From Halobacterium wangiae (GTDB lineage Archaea > Halobacteriota > Halobacteria > Halobacteriales > Halobacteriaceae): 64,000 bases of DNA. This document shows positions 3,903 through 58,483 of the stretch, piece by piece. How positions within the stretch are numbered: the stretch's first letter is position 1; every line of letters begins with the position of its first letter. The DNA is taken from contig NZ_CP089588.1 of assembly GCF_021249345.1 (NCBI RefSeq), positions 620,001 through 684,000 on the forward strand, read 5' to 3'. Below the pieces are notes generated by a model. The model was not told where the DNA came from. It did no database searches and saw nothing but the letters and a program-made list of their open reading frames with translations. The translations under genes were made by a program, and so were the position numbers.

Positions 3903-3921
3903 GGTCGTGGGTTAGTAGAAG

Positions 3922-49801: not shown

Positions 49802-50770
49802 ATGACTACGCGGGTCGAGACCGGCGGCCGCCTCCACTTCGGCTTCCTCAACCTCTCGCTGGCGAACGAGCGGCTGTACGGGAGTCTCGGCGTCGGCCTC
49901 GACCAGCCACGGGTGATCGTCGAAGCCGAGCGCGCCGAGCGAGTGGTCTGCACCCACGACCGGGCGCGTGAGTACGTCGAGCGCTCGTGCTCGCTCCTCG
50001 ACGTTCCGGGCGCGGACGTCGCAGTCCGGGCGGAACTCCCGGTGCACGTCGGTCTCGGCTCCGGCACGCAACTCGCGCTCGCGGTGCTGGCGGCCGTCGC
50101 ACGGGCCCACGACCGGACCCCAGAGGTTCGGGCGCGCGCCCCGGAACTCGGGCGCGGCGGCCGGAGCGGCGTGGGCGTCGCGACCTTCGAGTCCGGCGGG
50201 TTCGTGCTGGACGCCGGCCACCCGACGGAGCGGTTCACGACCGACCGACCACCGCGCGGCGAGTGGACGGTCCCGCCGGTCGCCGCCCGCCACGACGTGC
50301 CCACGGACTGGCGCTTCGTGCTCGTGCTCCCGGACGCGCCGCCGGGGAAGTCCGACGAAGGCGAGGACGAGAGCATGCGCGCGGCGGTGGAGTCGGCCGA
50401 GGGCGGGTTGGCGGACCGCATCTCCGGCGTGGTGACGCGCCGGGTGCTCCCCGCGCTGGCGACCGGCGACGTGGAGGAGTTCGGTGCCGGGGTCGCGGCG
50501 GTCGGCCGCCTCAACGGCGCGTGGTACGCCGACGAGCAGGGTGGCGTCTACCGGCCGCCCGCGGGCGCCATCGTGGACGGACTCGCGGACAGCCCCGCCG
50601 TCTCCGGCGCCGGGCAGTCGTCGTGGGGGCCGGCGGTGTACGGCGTCACGGACGAGGCCCGCGCGAGCGCGGCGGAGGCTGCGGGACGCGACGCACTCGA
50701 CGCGGCGGGCGTCGACGGCGACGTCCTCGTCGTCGCACCCCGGAACACCGGCGCGACAATCGAGGACTGA
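49802..50770 (+). CDS. Beta-ribofuranosylaminobenzene 5'-phosphate synthase
   Basis: A 322-residue GHMP-superfamily protein. MTTRVETGGRLHFGFLNLSL, LPVHVGLGSGTQLALAVLAA (about 80-99, the phosphate-binding GLGSGTQ motif) and RGGRSGVGVATFESGGFVLD are diagnostic. The enzyme condenses 4-hydroxybenzoate or p-aminobenzoate with PRPP in tetrahydromethanopterin synthesis. The haloarchaeal homologue need not make true methanopterin, but its presence with mch suggests a methanopterin-like C1 carrier. Its ATG follows the glycosyltransferase by 72 bases. Confidence 0.88.
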   Translation: MTTRVETGGRLHFGFLNLSLANERLYGSLGVGLDQPRVIVEAERAERVVCTHDRAREYVERSCSLLDVPGADVAVRAELPVHVGLGSGTQLALAVLAAVARAHDRTPEVRARAPELGRGGRSGVGVATFESGGFVLDAGHPTERFTTDRPPRGEWTVPPVAARHDVPTDWRFVLVLPDAPPGKSDEGEDESMRAAVESAEGGLADRISGVVTRRVLPALATGDVEEFGAGVAAVGRLNGAWYADEQGGVYRPPAGAIVDGLADSPAVSGAGQSSWGPAVYGVTDEARASAAEAAGRDALDAAGVDGDVLVVAPRNTGATIED

Positions 50771-50820
50771 CCGACCGACGGCGAGAGCCACTGCCACAAT
50801 CCACGGCTGCGGGGTGGACT

Positions 50821-50988
50821 GGAAGGGGCGACTGGCTCGACAGGCGAGGCGACGCAAACACGCCAACGAGCGAAGCGAGTGAGCGCGCACAGCGAGCGCG
50901 GGGCCGACCACCGGGAGGCCTCGGCTTGCTCGAACGGTGACTGGAGGGAACCGTGAGAGCCGCAGCCGTCGAGCCAGTCGGGGCTTCC
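50821..50988. repeat. Imperfect inverted repeat in a 314-base intergenic region
   Basis: The stretch 50771-51084 holds no gene that I can support. Arms 50821-50841 and 50968-50988 are 21 bases each and match as reverse complements at 18 positions, sharing the core GACTGGCTCGAC / GTCGAGCCAGTC. Between them runs GAGCGAAGCGAGTGAGCGC, a string I recall from many haloarchaeal intergenic repeats. It has no coding potential; a repetitive palindromic or MITE-like element is the likely nature. Confidence 0.5.
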
Positions 50989-51084
50989 TGGGAGTTCTCT
51001 GTGGTGTCGTGGCCGACAGTGTGAGAGACACCAGCGACCCCCTGACGGCAAAAGACGTAAACGCTACCCACGCGAGTCGGGGGT

Positions 51085-51924
51085 ATGGCGACGATTCCGT
51101 TCGGCGTCTCGCGGCTGGACGGCCGCATCGGCGGCGGTGCGCCCGAGGGGAGCGTGGTGCTGCTGTCGGGGGAGGCCGGTGCGGGGGCCCGGGAGTTCGT
51201 CTACACGAGTGCGGTGCTGAACGGCCTCCAGTCCGCGGACCAGGAGCTGTTCGACCTCCACTACGGCGACCTCCACGGGAACGCTGTGGCGCCCGAGGAG
51301 ATCCACTACGTGTCGTTCACGGCCGACGAGGCGGAGCTCCAGCGGGAGATCTCGTTCACGATGGACGAGGAGATCGTGACGTCCGGGCTCGACGCGGTGG
51401 AGTTCGCGGACCTCTCCCCGGAGTACTTCCAGTTGAGTCCGGTGCCGCGGGCGTGGTACTCGGGGAAACACCAGACCATCGCGGACCTCGGACAGACCGG
51501 CGACGACCGCCGTGACGTCCTGGAGGCGTTCGCGGACTACCTCGACGAGCACGCCCAGGGCAGCCTCGTGATCGTGGACTCGCTGACCGACCTCATCGGC
51601 GCGCGCAAGGACGACATGGATTTCAGCGACATCGTGTTGACGCTGAAGGGGTTGCGGAAGGCCGCCAGCGATTGGGACGGCCTCATCCTGTTGCACCTGG
51701 CGCGGGACGCGGTCACCGACGAGGAGTTCGGGAGCCTGATGACCTCCGTCGACGGCACCGTGCAGTTCGAGTGGGAGCGCGGCGGCAACGAGCGCGTCCG
51801 GACGATGTTCGTCCGGGAGTTCCGCGGCGTCCTCAGTCGACTGGAGGAGGAGGACATCGTGCAGTTCGAGACGGAAGTCCACGATGCCGGCTTCGACGTC
51901 ACCGACGTGCGGAAGATACGGTGA
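51085..51924 (+). CDS. RecA/KaiC-like protein without Walker A lysine
   Basis: A 279-residue protein of the same broad fold as the product at 45003. MATIPFGVSRLDGRIGGGAP is KaiC-like, but the P-loop reads LLSGEAGAGAREF, with A35 where lysine is expected, so ATP hydrolysis is doubtful. The Walker B strand LVIVDSLTDLIGA (about 153-165) is kept. Inactive RecA-fold partners are common in haloarchaea (HTR-like group). It starts 51085 after an AAAAGACGTAAACG region and precedes a coiled-coil gene by 42 bases. Confidence 0.78.
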   Translation: MATIPFGVSRLDGRIGGGAPEGSVVLLSGEAGAGAREFVYTSAVLNGLQSADQELFDLHYGDLHGNAVAPEEIHYVSFTADEAELQREISFTMDEEIVTSGLDAVEFADLSPEYFQLSPVPRAWYSGKHQTIADLGQTGDDRRDVLEAFADYLDEHAQGSLVIVDSLTDLIGARKDDMDFSDIVLTLKGLRKAASDWDGLILLHLARDAVTDEEFGSLMTSVDGTVQFEWERGGNERVRTMFVREFRGVLSRLEEEDIVQFETEVHDAGFDVTDVRKIR

Positions 51925-51966
51925 GGCACCGAACGGTTAAGGGAGGTGGGGTCCAACACCGGTTGA

Positions 51967-52953
51967 ATGGCCGACGGAACGTCGGACGCGGCCGGGGGGC
52001 CGAGCCTCGAGGGGGCGGCCGCGGAGTGGCTCGCGGAACGAGCCAGCGACGCAGACGTCAGCGAGAAGGTGCTCCTACAGCGAATCGTCGGCGCGTACCG
52101 GGCGGCGACGGAGGACGCCGACAACGAGTTCGTCACCGACGACGAGTTGCGCGAGCAGGTGGGGGACGTCGAGCGGGAGTTCGACGAGAAGATCCAGGAC
52201 GTCCGCGAGCGCGTCATTCAGGTGAAACGCGAGGCCGACGGGAAGGCGACCGCGGACCACGACCACGCGGAGGTCTCCCAGCAGGCCGCGGACGCGGTGG
52301 CGGCCGCGGAGTCGGCGCAGGCCGAGGCGGGAGTGCTGGCCGAGGAGGTCGACCGGCTCGCGGACCGCGTGGACGCTGGCTTCGACAACTTCGAGGAGGT
52401 GCTGTCGTACCTCCGGGACGAGACGGACGACCTCGACGGGAAGGCGACGACGCTGGCGACCGCGGTGCTGTCGATGCGGGAGTCCGTCCGCTCGCTGGCG
52501 GCGGCCGAGGCCCGCCGGGAGCGCGCCGAACAGCTCCAGCGCGAGGCGAACGTCTCGGGCGTCCAGAACGCGGACTGCGACGCCTGCGGGCAGTCGGTGA
52601 CCGTGGCGCAGCTGTCGGCGCCGGAGTGTCCGTTCTGCGCGGAGAGCTTCGAGGGCGTCGAGGCGAAGACGGGGTGGTTCGGCAGCCACACGCTGGTGAC
52701 CGGACGGAAGCCGGCGCTGACGGCGAAGCGGTCGTGGCTCGACGACGACGGCGAGAGCGACTCCTGGCTCGGTGGCGACACGGAGACTCTCGAAGCGATG
52801 GCGACCGGAGCGGACGACGCCGGAGAGACGGACGACGAAGCGACGGACGCCTGGGTCGAGGAGGCGGACGTCGACGACGCGGTGGACGTGACGGCGGCCG
52901 AACCCGTCGACAGCGAGGCGACGGACGGCGGCCGGGAGGACCCTGATGACTGA
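51967..52953 (+). CDS. Coiled-coil zinc-finger protein, unknown function
   Basis: A 328-residue protein. Residues about 25-195 are mainly helical and coiled coil (RADGKATADHDHAEVSQQ-like; DRLADRVDAGFDNFEEVLSY), then a zinc finger, DCDACGQSV (about 198-206) with APECPFCAESF (about 215-225), and an acidic C-terminal tail. A TTAAG box at 51937-51941 is about 26 bases before the ATG, so it has its own leaderless promoter. It overlaps the next gene by 8 bases. Possibly an adaptor for the KaiC-like protein; inferred from position only. Confidence 0.65.
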   Translation: MADGTSDAAGGPSLEGAAAEWLAERASDADVSEKVLLQRIVGAYRAATEDADNEFVTDDELREQVGDVEREFDEKIQDVRERVIQVKREADGKATADHDHAEVSQQAADAVAAAESAQAEAGVLAEEVDRLADRVDAGFDNFEEVLSYLRDETDDLDGKATTLATAVLSMRESVRSLAAAEARRERAEQLQREANVSGVQNADCDACGQSVTVAQLSAPECPFCAESFEGVEAKTGWFGSHTLVTGRKPALTAKRSWLDDDGESDSWLGGDTETLEAMATGADDAGETDDEATDAWVEEADVDDAVDVTAAEPVDSEATDGGREDPDD

Positions 52954-53491
52954 CGAACACCAGGCGGACACACCGGACGGCGAGGAGGACGACGAGCCGT
53001 CGGGCGAGCGCTCGCCCGGCGAGATCGGACCCGGCACCACCGCGAGCGACCCGCCCGGAGCGGACGCGGGCGAGAGCGCTGCCGCGGAGTCAGCTCCGGA
53101 CGACGGCCGCGACGAGGACGCTCCGCTGTCGGACCTCCGTGAGGACGTCGACGAGCGCCGCGAGCGCGAGGACGACTTCGACGCGCTGTTCGACGAGGTG
53201 AGCGTCGGCGACGTCGACGAGGAGTCGGTCTGGGAGGCGCTCTCCGCCTCGGCCGACGACCCGCTGTTCGTCACGGAGTCCATCGAGGACGATAGGGAGG
53301 TAACCGTCGTGGAGAAACGGCTCTGTCACGGCTGCGAGCACTTCGCGGACCCGCCGCACCTCGCCTGCAACCACGAGGGGACGACCATCGAGGCGGAGGT
53401 GGACACCGACCACTTCCGCGTCGTGGACTGTCCCGTCGTCGCCGAGCGCCGCGAGGAGGAGGCGGGTGACTTTTCACCCGACGATTCCTAA
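52946..53491 (+). CDS. Acidic protein with C-terminal cysteine cluster, unknown function
   Basis: A 181-residue protein. The first 115 residues are acidic and probably disordered (RREREDDFDALFDEVSVGDV starts a helical part). Residues about 126-165 contain a metal-binding-like cluster, KRLCHGCEHFADPPHLACNH and VVDCPVV, with four cysteines and two histidines. It overlaps the upstream gene by 8 bases and is 8 bases ahead of the TFS gene, so the three form an operon. Confidence 0.6.
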   Translation: MTDEHQADTPDGEEDDEPSGERSPGEIGPGTTASDPPGADAGESAAAESAPDDGRDEDAPLSDLREDVDERREREDDFDALFDEVSVGDVDEESVWEALSASADDPLFVTESIEDDREVTVVEKRLCHGCEHFADPPHLACNHEGTTIEAEVDTDHFRVVDCPVVAERREEEAGDFSPDDS

Positions 53492-53499
53492 CGGGAGCT

Positions 53500-53814
53500 A
53501 TGCAGTTCTGCGACGACTGCGGCTCGATGATGCACAAGCAGGGCGAGGAGATGGTGTGTTCGAGCTGCGGCGCCGTCGAGGAGAGCGAGGCCGACGGGGG
53601 GTTCGTGGAGACGGCCGCCCAGGACACCAGCGACGTCATCGAGACGAGCGAGGACGCGAACTTCGAGGGGAAGCCGACCGCCGAGGAGACGTGTCCGGAG
53701 TGTGGCCACGACACGGCGTGGTACACCATCAAGCAGACCGGGAGCGCCGACGAACCGCCGACGCGCTTCTTCAAGTGCAAGGACTGTGGCGCGCGCTGGC
53801 GGGATTACAGCTAA
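53500..53814 (+). CDS. tfs: Transcription factor S (TFS)
   Basis: A 104-residue archaeal TFIIS/RPB9-like protein. The N-terminal zinc ribbon is MQFCDDCGSMMHKQGEEMVC with SSCGAVE, and the C-terminal TFIIS-type ribbon is ETCPECGHDTAWYTIKQTGS, DEPPTRFFKCKDCGARWRDY. The catalytic acidic pair of TFS (Asp-Glu) appears as ADEPPTRF (about 81-88). It rescues backtracked RNA polymerase by stimulating RNA cleavage. Confidence 0.95.
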   Translation: MQFCDDCGSMMHKQGEEMVCSSCGAVEESEADGGFVETAAQDTSDVIETSEDANFEGKPTAEETCPECGHDTAWYTIKQTGSADEPPTRFFKCKDCGARWRDYS

Positions 53815-53861
53815 GAGGGATTTCCGCCGAGGTTCTCTAGAAAATATAGCGACACCCACCT

Positions 53862-53887
53862 AGAATCCCCGGATATCCGTGGATTCT
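53862..53887. promoter_or_regulatory. 26-bp near-perfect palindrome
   Basis: AGAATCC (53862-53868), a central perfect palindrome CGGATATCCG (53870-53879) and GGATTCT (53881-53887) are arranged symmetrically, with one mismatched pair (53869/53880). That gives 24 of 26 symmetric positions. It starts 43 bases before the next gene's ATG and just upstream of a TATA-like ATTTAC (53900-53905), the place for an activator or repressor dimer. It stands out because the surroundings have little symmetry. Confidence 0.5.
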
Positions 53888-53929
53888 CGCGAAAAAGCAT
53901 TTACGTCAAGAAGTCGTCTTTTCAGTCGA

Positions 53930-54298
53930 ATGATGTTCGAAGATGATGGCTCCGAAGAAACTAACCCCATCATAGATCGACCAGCTGCGGAGGACGATTC
54001 TTTCGAGGACCCGATAGGCGACTTAGACCTCGATATTGGTGATTCTGGCATCCCTGTGGCCGGGGAAGGTGACGTTGAAGAAGTAGATGATGTGGACGAA
54101 GAGGGTGTGCTGTGTGACTGTGACCCGGAGTACCGACACCCCGAAACAGTCCTTAAGGAGAGGGGTGCGTCATTGGGAGGACTCGGTGGTCAGTTCGCTG
54201 AGGAAACTACCGTCATTATCTGTACCAACTGCGGGACTCGGTTCTATGAGAACGAGTCCTACCGGAACGACAACAGCGGCGCTGGCTCGCTAATATAA
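53930..54298 (+). CDS. Zinc-ribbon protein of unknown function, atypical base composition
   Basis: A 122-residue protein starting MMFEDDGSEETNPIIDRPAA. It is acidic up to about 65, with DSFEDPIGDLDLDIGDSGIP, then has a cysteine set CDCDPEYRHPETVLKERGAS and IICTNCGTRFYENESYRNDN, possibly one zinc site. Its codon use is much more AT-rich than its neighbours (many AT-ending codons), suggesting recent transfer. An ATG at 53933 is an alternative start. It sits 3 bases before a tiny membrane-protein gene. Confidence 0.6.
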   Translation: MMFEDDGSEETNPIIDRPAAEDDSFEDPIGDLDLDIGDSGIPVAGEGDVEEVDDVDEEGVLCDCDPEYRHPETVLKERGASLGGLGGQFAEETTVIICTNCGTRFYENESYRNDNSGAGSLI

Positions 54299-54300
54299 TC

Positions 54301-54438
54301 ATGGAGAAGATAGTTGGAGCAATCGGTACTGCGCTCTCGCTGTACTTCATCTTCGACTTCTTCTTCTGGAATGGTGGTCTCGTGAACCCCAGTATCTTCA
54401 CCCGTCTCGAATCGGTAATGATGCTACTCCCCTTCTGA
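54301..54438 (+). CDS. 45-residue single-helix membrane protein
   Basis: A short open frame with ATG start and TGA stop. The product is MEKIVGAIGTALSLYFIFDF then FFWNGGLVNPSIFTRLESVM, ending MLLPF: a hydrophobic N-terminal helix with aromatic end (about 5-23). It begins two bases after the stop of the zinc-ribbon gene and shares its AT-rich codon use, so the two are likely co-transcribed. No family recognised; a chance open frame is possible but tight spacing favours a real gene. Confidence 0.5.
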   Translation: MEKIVGAIGTALSLYFIFDFFFWNGGLVNPSIFTRLESVMMLLPF

Positions 54439-54512
54439 GAGGGAACACAGCCACGTAGATTGTAAGGTTTGGACGCCGAACGTTCAAACCACGACGCGCC
54501 GTCAGTACCACC

Positions 54513-55520
54513 GTGGCACTCTCGACCGCCCTGACTGAGAGACTCGGAATCGACGTCCCCCTGGTCCAGGCACCTATCGGGAGCGCGACGAACCCCGAAC
54601 TCGCGGCCGCCGTCGCCGACGCCTGTGCGCTGGGGATGCTCGCGGTGACGTGGCTGGACCCCGAGGAGGCCCGCGCGGACGTGGCCGACGCGCTCGGCCG
54701 GACGGACGGCACCGTCGGTGTGAACATCGTCGTGGACGACGCCGCGAAGGACGTGCCCACCGAGGAGCACGTCGAGGCGTGCCTGGACGCGGGCGCGGAG
54801 GTGATCTCCTTCTCGTTCGGCGACGCGGCGCCGTACGTCGAGCGCGTCCACGACGCCGGCGGAATCGTCCTCCAGACCGTCGGGAGCGCCGCGGAGGCCC
54901 GCGAGGCGGAGGCTGCAGCCGTTGACGTCGTGGTCGCGCAGGGGTGGGAAGCCGGCGGCCACGTCCAGAGCGAGGTGGCGACGCTCCCGCTGGTGCCGCG
55001 TGTCGTGGACGCGGTGCCCGACACCCCGGTTATCGCCGCGGGCGGTATCGCGGACGGCCGTGGCGTGGCCGCAGTGCTGACGCTCGGCGCGGCGGGGGCG
55101 TGGCTCGGGACGCGGTTCCTCGCCGCGGCGGAGGCAGACGTCCACCCCGACTACCGCGAGCGAGTGCTGACCGCCGACGAGACGGGGACGACCTACGGCA
55201 CGGTGTTCGACGAGGGGTGGCCCGAGGTCCCTCACCGCGTGCTCGACAACGAGACGACCGAGTGCTGGGGAGCAGCGGGTCGCCCCGACGAGGCGAAACC
55301 CGGCGCTGGCGACGCCGTCGCCGAGTCCCCCGACGGCGAGCCGATCCGTCGCTACGAGGACTCGCTGGCGGTCCCCGGAACCGAGGGCGACGTGACCGAA
55401 CTGCCGCTGTACGCGGGCCAGAGCGCGGGCCTCACGATCGAACGCCGGCCTGCGGGCGAAATCGTCGAGTCGCTGGCGGGGGAGACCTGTGCGGCGCTCG
55501 ACCACCGGCCGGAGTGCTGA
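54513..55520 (+). CDS. Nitronate monooxygenase-like FMN protein
   Basis: A 335-residue TIM-barrel flavoprotein of the 2-nitropropane dioxygenase/NMO family. MALSTALTERLGIDVPLVQA, PIGSATNPELAAAVADACAL and VDVVVAQGWEAGGHV (about 140-154) with IAAGGIADGRGVAAVLTLGA (phosphate-binding) are typical. It binds FMN and oxidises nitronates or, in some members, reduces enoyl-type substrates. The GTG start at 54513 is followed by the normal N-terminus. Confidence 0.85.
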   Translation: MALSTALTERLGIDVPLVQAPIGSATNPELAAAVADACALGMLAVTWLDPEEARADVADALGRTDGTVGVNIVVDDAAKDVPTEEHVEACLDAGAEVISFSFGDAAPYVERVHDAGGIVLQTVGSAAEAREAEAAAVDVVVAQGWEAGGHVQSEVATLPLVPRVVDAVPDTPVIAAGGIADGRGVAAVLTLGAAGAWLGTRFLAAAEADVHPDYRERVLTADETGTTYGTVFDEGWPEVPHRVLDNETTECWGAAGRPDEAKPGAGDAVAESPDGEPIRRYEDSLAVPGTEGDVTELPLYAGQSAGLTIERRPAGEIVESLAGETCAALDHRPEC

Positions 55521-55580
55521 CGGAGGCCCGGTCGCTCCCCGACTCGAAATCTTCAGGCCGGATGGCGCCGAGGCCCATCC

Positions 55581-56012
55581 ATGGACGAGTACGCGTACGT
55601 CGTGAACGTCGATGCGGCAGTCGTCAGAGACGACGAGTACCTCGTGGTCGAGCGGAGCGCCGAGGAGGACCACGCGGCGGGCACGCTGGCGTTCCCCGGT
55701 GGGAAGGTCGAGCAGACCGAGGGGTTCGACGCCGTCGAGAACACCGCGCGTCGTGAGGTCCGCGAGGAGACGGGCGTGGAGGTCGGCGCCGTCGAGTACG
55801 TCTCCAGCAACGCGTTCGTCGCCGACGAGGGGACGCAGTGCCTGAACGTGGTGACGTGGTGTGAGTACGAGAGCGGAGAACCCGAGGCCCGCGAACCCGA
55901 GGAGGTGGCCGACGCGTTCTGGCTGCCGTACGAGGCGTTCGGCGAGCGCGAGGACGTGCCGGAGTACATCGCGGCGTTCGCCGAGCGGGTCGAGGAGCGC
56001 CGCAGTTACTGA
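55581..56012 (+). CDS. NUDIX hydrolase
   Basis: A 143-residue NUDIX protein. The box reads GGKVEQTEGFDAVENTARRE followed by VREETGVEV, that is G-x5-E, a three-residue-longer spacer than usual, then REVREETGV. Its catalytic glutamates are present. It begins with strand MDEYAYVVNVDAAVVRDDEY. Substrate unknown. It ends 7 bases inside the convergent ZIP gene. Confidence 0.87.
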   Translation: MDEYAYVVNVDAAVVRDDEYLVVERSAEEDHAAGTLAFPGGKVEQTEGFDAVENTARREVREETGVEVGAVEYVSSNAFVADEGTQCLNVVTWCEYESGEPEAREPEEVADAFWLPYEAFGEREDVPEYIAAFAERVEERRSY

Positions 56013-56866
56013 AGGAGGAGCCAGGCGGCGGCGACGACGAGGCCACCGGTCGCCGTCGAGAGGACGGCCTGCTCGCGGAGGTCGTCGAGGAGCGTGTGGT
56101 CGTGTTCGTGGCCGGCGCGCGTGGCGGCGTCGTGGACCTCGCTGCCGGTCTCGCAGTGCGGGAGGAAGTCCATCGCGACGTGGAGGAAGATGCCGGCGGC
56201 GAAGCCGAAGACGACGGCGCGGAACGTCGGGTCCGTGGGGAAGGAGAACAGCGTGACCGTGAGCGCGGCGAGGCCGACGCCGGAGGCCGGGAGGAGAAGC
56301 ATCGCGGGCGAGCGGTCGCCCCGGACGAGGCGGCGTGCCGCGGCGTAGCCCGCGGGGCCCTTGTGGGAGACGATGGCGAGGCCGAGCAGCGGGCCGAGTT
56401 CCGGCATCGCGGTGTAGACGACGCCGATGATGGAACCGGCGGCCAGCGAGTGGGCGGTGAGTTCGGCGCTAGTGCGGTCCAGGGGGAGGTCGAAGTGCGT
56501 GAGAAGGTGGCCGACGGTGTGCGCGGCGAAGCCGACGAGGATGCCGGCGGCGACGCCGAAGCCGCCGGGTTTGGGGGCGTAGCCGATAGCCTGTGGCACG
56601 AGGAACACGCTGGCGCTGGTGATCATCGCGCCGCTGGCGAGGCCGTACCCCCAGACCAGACCGGTGGGGTGTTCGCTGCTCGCGCGGGCGCCGAGCGCTG
56701 CTGCACCGGCCATCGCGGCGAACGCGACCCACGAGATGCCGAGCAGTTTGACGGGCGCGTCGCCGACGAGGACGTACGCGGACAGCAAGACGAACCCGAG
56801 TGTGCCGAGGACGCCGAGGCGCGAGGTGTTCGCGCGGACGGCACCGACTGACTGAGTGACCGACAT
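56006..56866 (-). CDS. ZIP family metal transporter
   Basis: A 286-residue polytopic protein with about eight helices. Metal-binding segments are in HTVGHLLTHFDLPLDR (about 116-131), ELTAHSLAAGSIIGVVYTAM (about 134-153) and HKGPAGYAAARRLV (about 166-179). GIFLHVAMDFLPHCE and the loop HEHDHT near the C-terminus carry more histidines. Zinc or other divalent uptake is likely. The start region MSVTQSVGAVRANTSRLG is polar. The adjacent upstream DNA (TTATTAATC) gives a TATA-like box. Confidence 0.85.
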   Translation of the reverse strand: MSVTQSVGAVRANTSRLGVLGTLGFVLLSAYVLVGDAPVKLLGISWVAFAAMAGAAALGARASSEHPTGLVWGYGLASGAMITSASVFLVPQAIGYAPKPGGFGVAAGILVGFAAHTVGHLLTHFDLPLDRTSAELTAHSLAAGSIIGVVYTAMPELGPLLGLAIVSHKGPAGYAAARRLVRGDRSPAMLLLPASGVGLAALTVTLFSFPTDPTFRAVVFGFAAGIFLHVAMDFLPHCETGSEVHDAATRAGHEHDHTLLDDLREQAVLSTATGGLVVAAAWLLLQ

Positions 56867-56935
56867 TCAGTTATTAATCTACTAGCCTTCGTTAATAGCC
56901 TGTCGGTCGGCAGCGTTCCGGACCGCTCCGCCCGT

Positions 56936-57610
56936 TCAGGCCGTCGAACGCTTCCACTCCGCGAGTCCCAGCACGCCGCCGTCGAGTTCCTCGGGGACGG
57001 ACGCCGCCCACGTGAACAGCGGAGCGACTTCGTCGGGGGCTCGTCCACCCATCCCGTGGAGGTCGGTGTCGACCGCTCCCGGGTCGACGAGGCCGACGGC
57101 CTGCTCGCAGTCCGCGGCGAACTGCCGCACCACGCCCTCCGCGGCCGCCTTCGACGCCGCGTAGACGCCGTACCCGGGCTGGGCCTCGCGGGCGACGCTG
57201 CCGGTCGGAACGAGCACGCGGCCGTCGGCGTCCATGTGTGGGAGCGCCTCGCGGACGGCCGCGAACACGCCGCGGGCGTTCGTACGCATCGTGTCGTCGA
57301 ACGCGCTGTACGCCGTCTCGCCCAGCGGCGTCGCACCGGCGTCGCCGTGGTAGACGGCGGCGCAGGGGACGACGACGTCGATGCCGGACTCCTCGCCGGC
57401 CTTCGACGCGTGTTCCATGAACCGCTCGACGTCGAACTCGTCGCGCACGTCCGTGCGGAGGGAGACGCCGCCGAGTTCGTCGGCGAGCGCCGCGATCGCG
57501 TCGCTGTCCCGGCTCCCGAGTGCGACCGTCGCGCCGTCGTCGGCGAACGCTCGCGCGATCGCCTCGCCGAGGCCGCCGGACGCCCCAGTCACCGCTACCG
57601 TGGTTGCCAT
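56936..57610 (-). CDS. Short-chain dehydrogenase/reductase
   Basis: A 224-residue classical SDR. MATTVAVTGASGGLGEAIAR holds the TGxxxGxG NAD(P) motif (about 8-15), catalytic Ser in VPTGSVAREAQPGYG and YGVYAASKAA the YxxxK pair (Tyr at about 152). The GSR motif (LGSRDSDAI) suggests NADP preference. Substrate unknown. Confidence 0.87.
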   Translation of the reverse strand: MATTVAVTGASGGLGEAIARAFADDGATVALGSRDSDAIAALADELGGVSLRTDVRDEFDVERFMEHASKAGEESGIDVVVPCAAVYHGDAGATPLGETAYSAFDDTMRTNARGVFAAVREALPHMDADGRVLVPTGSVAREAQPGYGVYAASKAAAEGVVRQFAADCEQAVGLVDPGAVDTDLHGMGGRAPDEVAPLFTWAASVPEELDGGVLGLAEWKRSTA

Positions 57611-57661
57611 GCAGGGAGAAGAACCGCGAGCTGCCTAAACCTCCCGGGACGAGCCTCGTCC

Positions 57662-58483
57662 CTACCCGGTGAGCACGCCGGTCGTCAGTTCCCCGAGCGG
57701 CCGCGTCACGTCGAACTCCGGCGTGGCGACGTGGATCGGGGTCTCCTCGTCGACGTCGTAGAACCGGAGCGTGAGCGAGAACGTCCCGTCGTCGGCGACG
57801 GGGCCCGCTTCGCGCTGGCCGGACGCCTCGTGGGTCGCCCAGACGTTCTCGCCGGCGTAACGCGCGGCGACTTCGCCCTCCACGACGGCCGCCTGTGGGT
57901 CCGAGAAGTCCGTCCCCCGCATCGGGTCGTCGTTGTCGTACCACGGCCCGAACCCCTCGTCGATGGCGTAGACGTTCGAGAAGCCGGCCTTCTTGAGGCC
58001 CGCGGCCCGCACCGAGGAGAGGTGGTGGGGACAGCGGCAGTAACAGACGACGCGGTCGTCGTTCGGCCAGCCGTTGATGGCGCCACCCTGGGACCCACGG
58101 ACTGCGGGACTGTTCACCGCGCCGAAGATGTGGGCGCGCTCGTACTGTTCGAGCCCGCGGGCGTCGACGAACCGGGCCTCCCGCCTGCGGTGCCAGTAGC
58201 GGGCGACGTCGATGGGGACGAGCGTGACCGTCTCGCCGTTGGTCGACAGCGTCGAGAACTGGGACTCGTCGACGGTCCGCTCGGACGTGTCCTCCGCGTA
58301 CTCGGGCGGGTAACCGTCGCCGGGCGTCTCGTCGGTCGGGAGCTGCTGGTTCGCGGTGAACGACGTGTCGAGGTTGCCCGGGTGGTTGACGGTCCCGGAC
58401 GACGAAGAGCCGAAGAGACCCGTACAGCCGGCGAGAGCTGCGAGCGACCCCGTGCTCGCGGCGAGGAACGTGCGGCGGTTCAT
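57662..58483 (-). CDS. Tat lipoprotein with rhodanese-like domain
   Basis: A 273-residue exported protein. MNRRTFLAASTGSLAALAGC is a Tat signal (RRTFL) ending in a lipobox with C20. A Ser-rich linker follows, and about residues 90-180 resemble a rhodanese domain: RFVDARGLEQYERAHIFGAV, VVCYCRCPHHLSSVRAAGLK with candidate active-site cysteines, and GFSNVYAIDEGFGPWYDN. The last 80 residues form a small beta domain. It is anchored on the outer face of the membrane; sulfur transfer or a redox role is possible. Confidence 0.8.
   Translation of the reverse strand: MNRRTFLAASTGSLAALAGCTGLFGSSSSGTVNHPGNLDTSFTANQQLPTDETPGDGYPPEYAEDTSERTVDESQFSTLSTNGETVTLVPIDVARYWHRRREARFVDARGLEQYERAHIFGAVNSPAVRGSQGGAINGWPNDDRVVCYCRCPHHLSSVRAAGLKKAGFSNVYAIDEGFGPWYDNDDPMRGTDFSDPQAAVVEGEVAARYAGENVWATHEASGQREAGPVADDGTFSLTLRFYDVDEETPIHVATPEFDVTRPLGELTTGVLTG

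Follow-up and report, generated by a model that had tools for sequence, protein, structure and literature searches.

Between the genes for TFS and nitronate monooxygenase, both named from Pfam matches, the 64-kb window (the whole stretch of DNA analysed here) holds an AT-rich mini-island with a 26-bp palindrome, a promoter-like sequence and two small genes (Table 1). The first gene encodes a putative zinc-ribbon protein, here called ZnR, and the second, which begins two bases beyond the end of the first, encodes a membrane peptide, here called TM45. The window belongs to a single 3.1-Mb contig (G000, the window genome), whose proteins we read as haloarchaeal; it is compared with a sister species (G001), and the genus sample comprises 13 genomes, i.e. 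the window genome and 12 others searched. The drop in base composition described by the initial annotation is evident in the composition profile, where GC content is 0.52-0.54 across about 53700-54449 and 0.65-0.76 on the flanks.

Table 1. Features of the mini-island in the window and of the integrated element in genome G046 (locus L051).
Feature	Position	Strand	Basis or remarks
AT-rich mini-island, TFS/nitronate monooxygenase interval	53815-54512		Composition profile; pair missing at TFS in 11 of 13 genus genomes
Palindrome AGAATCCCCGGATATCCGTGGATTCT, 26 bp, half-site AGAATCC-N-CGGAT	53862-53887		24/26 symmetric; conserved in G001
BRE-like CGAAAAAG (53890-53897) and weak TATA-like CATTTACG (53898-53905)	53890-53905	+	Sequence reading; invariant in G001
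ZnR, 122-aa protein	53930-54298	+	ORF, profiles, dN 0.19 / dS 0.98 vs G001
TM45, 45-aa membrane peptide	54301-54438	+	ORF, AlphaFold2, hydropathy, dN 0.14 / dS 0.98 vs G001
G046 integrated element, 9.7 kb	L051 1349-11045		27-bp tRNA-Phe repeat, integrase, AT-rich interior
G046, 27-bp copy of tRNA-Phe 3′ end	L051 1349		
G046, tyrosine integrase	L051 1447-2460		

Both genes are kept at the same place in the sister species, with 69% protein identity for ZnR and 71% for TM45, changes mostly at third positions, and dN/dS ratios of about 0.19 and 0.14, respectively; we therefore regard them as real genes, both evidently under purifying selection. ZnR may start at ATG 53930 or 53933, the latter being favoured by its relatives. 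Its N-terminus is strongly acidic (24 D/E vs 1 K/R in 60 residues) and its C-terminus has a zinc-ribbon-like CxC...CxxC arrangement, in which C62-x-C64 and C98-x-x-C101 would provide the two ligand pairs of a zinc ribbon. C62, C98 and C101 are invariant in all six aligned ZnR proteins, and C64 is replaced by H in G261. The structural model of ZnR is poor (mean pLDDT only 53) and includes a predicted beta hairpin at residues 69-75/92-98. For TM45, AlphaFold2 predicts a membrane helix at residues 2-23 and a short second helix at 32-42 (mean pLDDT 75), the hydropathy maximum lies at residues 4-22, and Y15, F18, D19, F21, W23, N24, G25, G26, P30 and R35 are invariant. Neither protein has a significant match in Pfam, PHROG, NCBIfam or PADLOC, the best ones being at chance level, and sequence searches of the PDB returned no match for either. 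Both appear to be previously unclassified proteins, and the description of two unrecognised genes lying two bases apart is upheld, as the frames are real and no known family accounts for either product. No title or abstract describing such a pair emerged from the literature searched, which is weak evidence, given that no name exists under which these proteins could be sought.

The palindrome is found just upstream of the TATA-like sequence, as first annotated, and ends 2 bp from the BRE-like sequence; the match to a TATA box is poor. An ATG follows about 29 bp past the centre of the TATA-like sequence, a spacing that we take to be the layout of a leaderless haloarchaeal transcript, and 53890-53905 is a probable leaderless promoter. 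Among even palindromes in which 12 or more of 13 pairs match, the sequence stands alone in the 64 kb, for which order-1 Markov surrogates give an expectation of 0.18 per window, and one in 3000 surrogates of the mini-island contained a palindrome of this grade. The sole two differences between the window genome and the sister species fall on symmetric positions 8 and 19, which are mismatched in both, a pattern compatible with a dimer-binding site in which a single position of each half is free. Palindrome and promoter together are identical in 50 of 52 alignment columns; the probability of two or fewer differences in 52 is 9e-4 at 20% neutral change, for a stretch that was chosen as the best, and a comparison block from another intergenic region is identical in 47 of 52. 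Since the palindrome is conserved in the sister species and abuts the promoter, it is probably an operator or regulatory site. At up to two mismatches it occurs at one place each in these two genomes and is absent from the 97 other order genomes searched, and it was rejected as a general operator on these grounds; at up to three mismatches there is no further place in either genome and none in G008, G046, G217 or G183. Because it has no other place in either genome and none comparable was found ahead of the relatives at the six loci outside the genus, it appears to have been added locally and not to belong to the module that travelled. The earlier proposal of one operator for both genes is thus likely to hold for the regulatory site, but not for the module as such. 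No terminator-like site was found. If transcribed, the palindrome would give a well-folded RNA (z -3.7), and a role of this kind at the 3′ end of TFS is conceivable.

The initial annotation held that orthologues at the same place and of the same composition in all relatives would speak against a recently acquired module. All 13 genomes of the genus have TFS, which the pair adjoins in two (G000 and G001). In G008 and G006 the NUDIX gene directly follows TFS, i.e. the site is empty, and in the sister species it directly follows TM45; within the genus, a small site of variation lies between TFS and NUDIX. The nitronate monooxygenase gene (54513-55520) lies between the pair and NUDIX in the window and is missing there in the sister species. 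An Rfam search over 50000-58000 gave no match, the only tRNA genes of the window are at 3921 and 38427, and the 64 kb contain no relative of the G046 integrase described below. The combination of an integrase with an att repeat at a tRNA 3′ end, by which an integrated element is recognised, is not seen for the window copy, nor does a defence gene or att repeat lie close to the pair in the window; PADLOC gave nothing beyond 2.5e-14 and no strong defence match for 10 window flank proteins. Acquisition of the pair nevertheless finds support in its absence at TFS from 11 of the 13 genomes, its foreign composition, and the position of its relatives in elements and islands of other families. "Recently" can be retained in a relative sense only, because the pair was present before the split from the sister species and the proteins have since diverged to 69-71% identity.

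The pair is highly diverged synonymously from its counterpart in the sister species although the promoter is nearly identical, with a dS of about 0.98 vs 0.13-0.52 in 30 flanking frame pairs (some frames overlapping). We considered that the two species acquired the pair independently, as the high dS relative to the neighbours would suggest. However, the shared site and the near-identical promoter argue for a single acquisition, which we favour, presumably followed by fast synonymous change in AT-rich, ameliorating genes. Alternatively, the pair may have been replaced through recombination.

Profile searches found credible relatives in 8 of 392 genomes of the order, the pair being present in four, only ZnR in two and only TM45 in two. 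The ZnR profile gave eight matches, of which six were accepted (G000, G001, G046, G217, G183 and G261); the others, marginal matches in G380 and G276 (E 9.2e-4), were dropped because they fall within long unrelated frames, one with an internal stop. The TM45 profile gave six (G000, G001, G046, G217, G073 and G331), and an improved profile, run on overlapping samples, matched 1 of 146 genomes in the family of G217 and 6 of 391 in the class and added nothing new. The order ZnR then TM45 is kept in G000, G001, G046 and G217, across three families and with a spacing of 2-8 bp. ZnR occurs without TM45 in G183 and G261 (two of six), and TM45 without a ZnR match in G073 and G331 (two of six). No relative of either protein was found in plasmid and phage records, and neither the genome-contig scan nor the TM45 scan of viral contigs gave one. 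Viral contig L058, apparently from a bacterial phage, was rejected, as the match was a short CDCDPEY stretch in an unrelated protein. The ZnR/TM45 family is rare and scattered.

The loci outside the genus place the relatives in mobile contexts. In G046, 427 bp separate the pair from the 3′ end of tRNA-Phe, and 27 bp of that end are repeated 9.7 kb away; an integrase and an att repeat at a tRNA 3′ end are both present, and the copy is cargo of an integrated element. The element contains the integrase, a D5_N/DUF5906 helicase, HamA and HamB (Hachiman), three ORFs without a family, the pair and tRNA-Phe, and its GC content is 0.41-0.51 inside vs about 0.6 outside. It resembles a small satellite or integrative plasmid. 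In G217, an AT-rich stretch holds the pair, and the 3′ end of tRNA-Val is 384 bp away from it; 60 kb contained no exact att repeat of at least 15 bp and no related integrase. Its neighbours there (L052 8758-9380) are a winged-helix-like protein that weakly matches PadR/TrmB and a 50-aa protein in which a single stretch is hydrophobic. The ZnR gene of G261 comes immediately after that of a tyrosine integrase sharing 41% identity with the G046 enzyme. In G073, an integrase 33% identical to the G046 enzyme is about 4 kb from TM45, and methylases with matches to DrmMI, type IIG and type II models are nearby; directly upstream of this solo TM45 (L055 8465-9658) are two proteins with weak matches, one ATPase-like (HATPase) and the other STAS-like. 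In G183, a PD-T7-4 homologue adjoins ZnR (E 7.5e-69), and no exact att repeat of at least 15 bp was found in 39.9 kb. In G331, TM45 is on a 77.5-kb contig. It is preceded there (L056 9121-9909) by a protein of 192 aa that has two CxxC motifs and was not detected as a ZnR relative, so exchange of partners is possible. A defence gene is nearby in three of these six loci, and PADLOC matched none of 10 further neighbours in G217, G261, G331 and G046.

We read the pair as mobile-element cargo that has become immobilised in the window. ZnR and TM45 would have travelled as an accessory operon of tRNA-integrating haloarchaeal elements and then been stranded at TFS, where the promoter would have gained or kept a dedicated palindromic operator in the window lineage; a dimeric protein bound to the palindrome would probably switch the operon. 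TM45 would be the membrane-inserted effector, with Asp19 within the helix followed by WNGG-x3-P-x4-R, its translation would be coupled to that of ZnR, and ZnR, as a putative cytoplasmic zinc-ribbon partner, may act as its sensor or control partner. For the function, which we infer from the neighbours, the association of distant relatives with integrases, tRNA genes and antiviral defence genes suggests that the pair may help the cell or the element to fend off rivals, most likely by competing with elements or viruses at the membrane through superinfection exclusion or an abortive-type membrane response. The reading as a whole, in which two accessory genes of haloarchaeal integrative elements form an operon left behind in the chromosome and act at the membrane against viruses or elements, is tentative. 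Our confidence in it is somewhat below even, mainly because the number of neighbours is small and genes may gather in islands for a variety of reasons; defence genes are abundant in islands in any case, and proximity to them does not have to reflect a shared function. The more specific idea, that ZnR controlling TM45 forms a minimal archaeal antiviral or superinfection-exclusion module, spread by elements and kept by the host under its own operator, is rather doubtful.

These contexts have parallels in described systems. PD-T7-4 and other defence genes are carried beside integrases, in elements that are decaying or active, according to PMC9519451; the likeness to our loci lies in this integrase-side carriage and in the homologue beside ZnR, but ZnR and TM45 match no PADLOC model. 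Hachiman (HamAB) shares the integrated element with the pair in G046, but as a neighbour only, as ZnR and TM45 match no Hachiman model. The available part of PMC4158269 describes archaeal "dark matter" islands whose genes are rare, small and quick to evolve, with membrane proteins over-represented, a description that fits the pair, which is not named in that part.

Another possibility is a host-type regulatory pair like Brz-Brb of Halobacterium salinarum, in which the zinc protein would regulate transcription and the second peptide would assist or tether it. This appears to be the nearest anatomy described, a small zinc protein followed immediately by a very small ORF on one transcript, and Brz and Brb jointly act on bop transcription in Halobacterium (PMC3184054). 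However, the likeness considered here is one of anatomy: Brz has 60 aa vs 122 aa in ZnR, Brb is basic (pI 11.4 in that paper) and not a membrane helix whereas TM45 is predicted to be one, and that pair works for a photosystem gene of the host. Haloferax zinc-finger micro-proteins (PMC10716476, PMC6562870) are likewise small haloarchaeal zinc-binding proteins, but with two C(P)xCG motifs, in contrast to the CxC and CxxC motifs and the 60-residue acidic N-terminus of ZnR. The scatter of the family over families and islands is also unlike a core regulator, and we consider a Brz-Brb-like role unlikely.

Lower still is the probability that ZnR, with TM45, is a directionality or integration factor of a tyrosine-integrase element and not defence cargo. 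The three integrases at these loci belong to one family, ZnR immediately follows one of them in G261, and the G046 pair lies at the att end opposite the integrase, so that the two would adjoin in the circular form. Against this, it is not evident what a membrane peptide would do in recombination, and the pair is kept in the window genome and the sister species with no such integrase in the 64-kb window or in 19.9 kb of the latter, nor is there one in 60 kb of G217. A strict toxin-antitoxin system, with TM45 as membrane toxin and ZnR as antitoxin, would agree with the operon order, the tight spacing, the palindrome at the promoter and the mobile context, but is weakened to improbable by the solo copies, each gene standing alone in two of the six credible genomes that carry it. 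The suggestion in the initial annotation of a possibly toxin- or stress-related module is not established; what the neighbouring genes indicate is a link with mobile elements and antiviral defence. A decaying remnant with no present function would explain the AT-richness, the lost integrase and att repeat and the synonymous divergence far above the flanks, but is very improbable and disfavoured given the low dN/dS ratios (0.14-0.19), the intact frames in both species and the near-identical promoter and palindrome.

Very small archaeal membrane proteins are poorly catalogued and, to our knowledge, few archaeal defence or exclusion systems acting at the membrane have been described. The role of ZnR and TM45 and their regulator are open to direct testing in a laboratory haloarchaeon, as the small size of the pair makes it easy to express or delete, the conserved motif can be mutated and the probable operator is defined.
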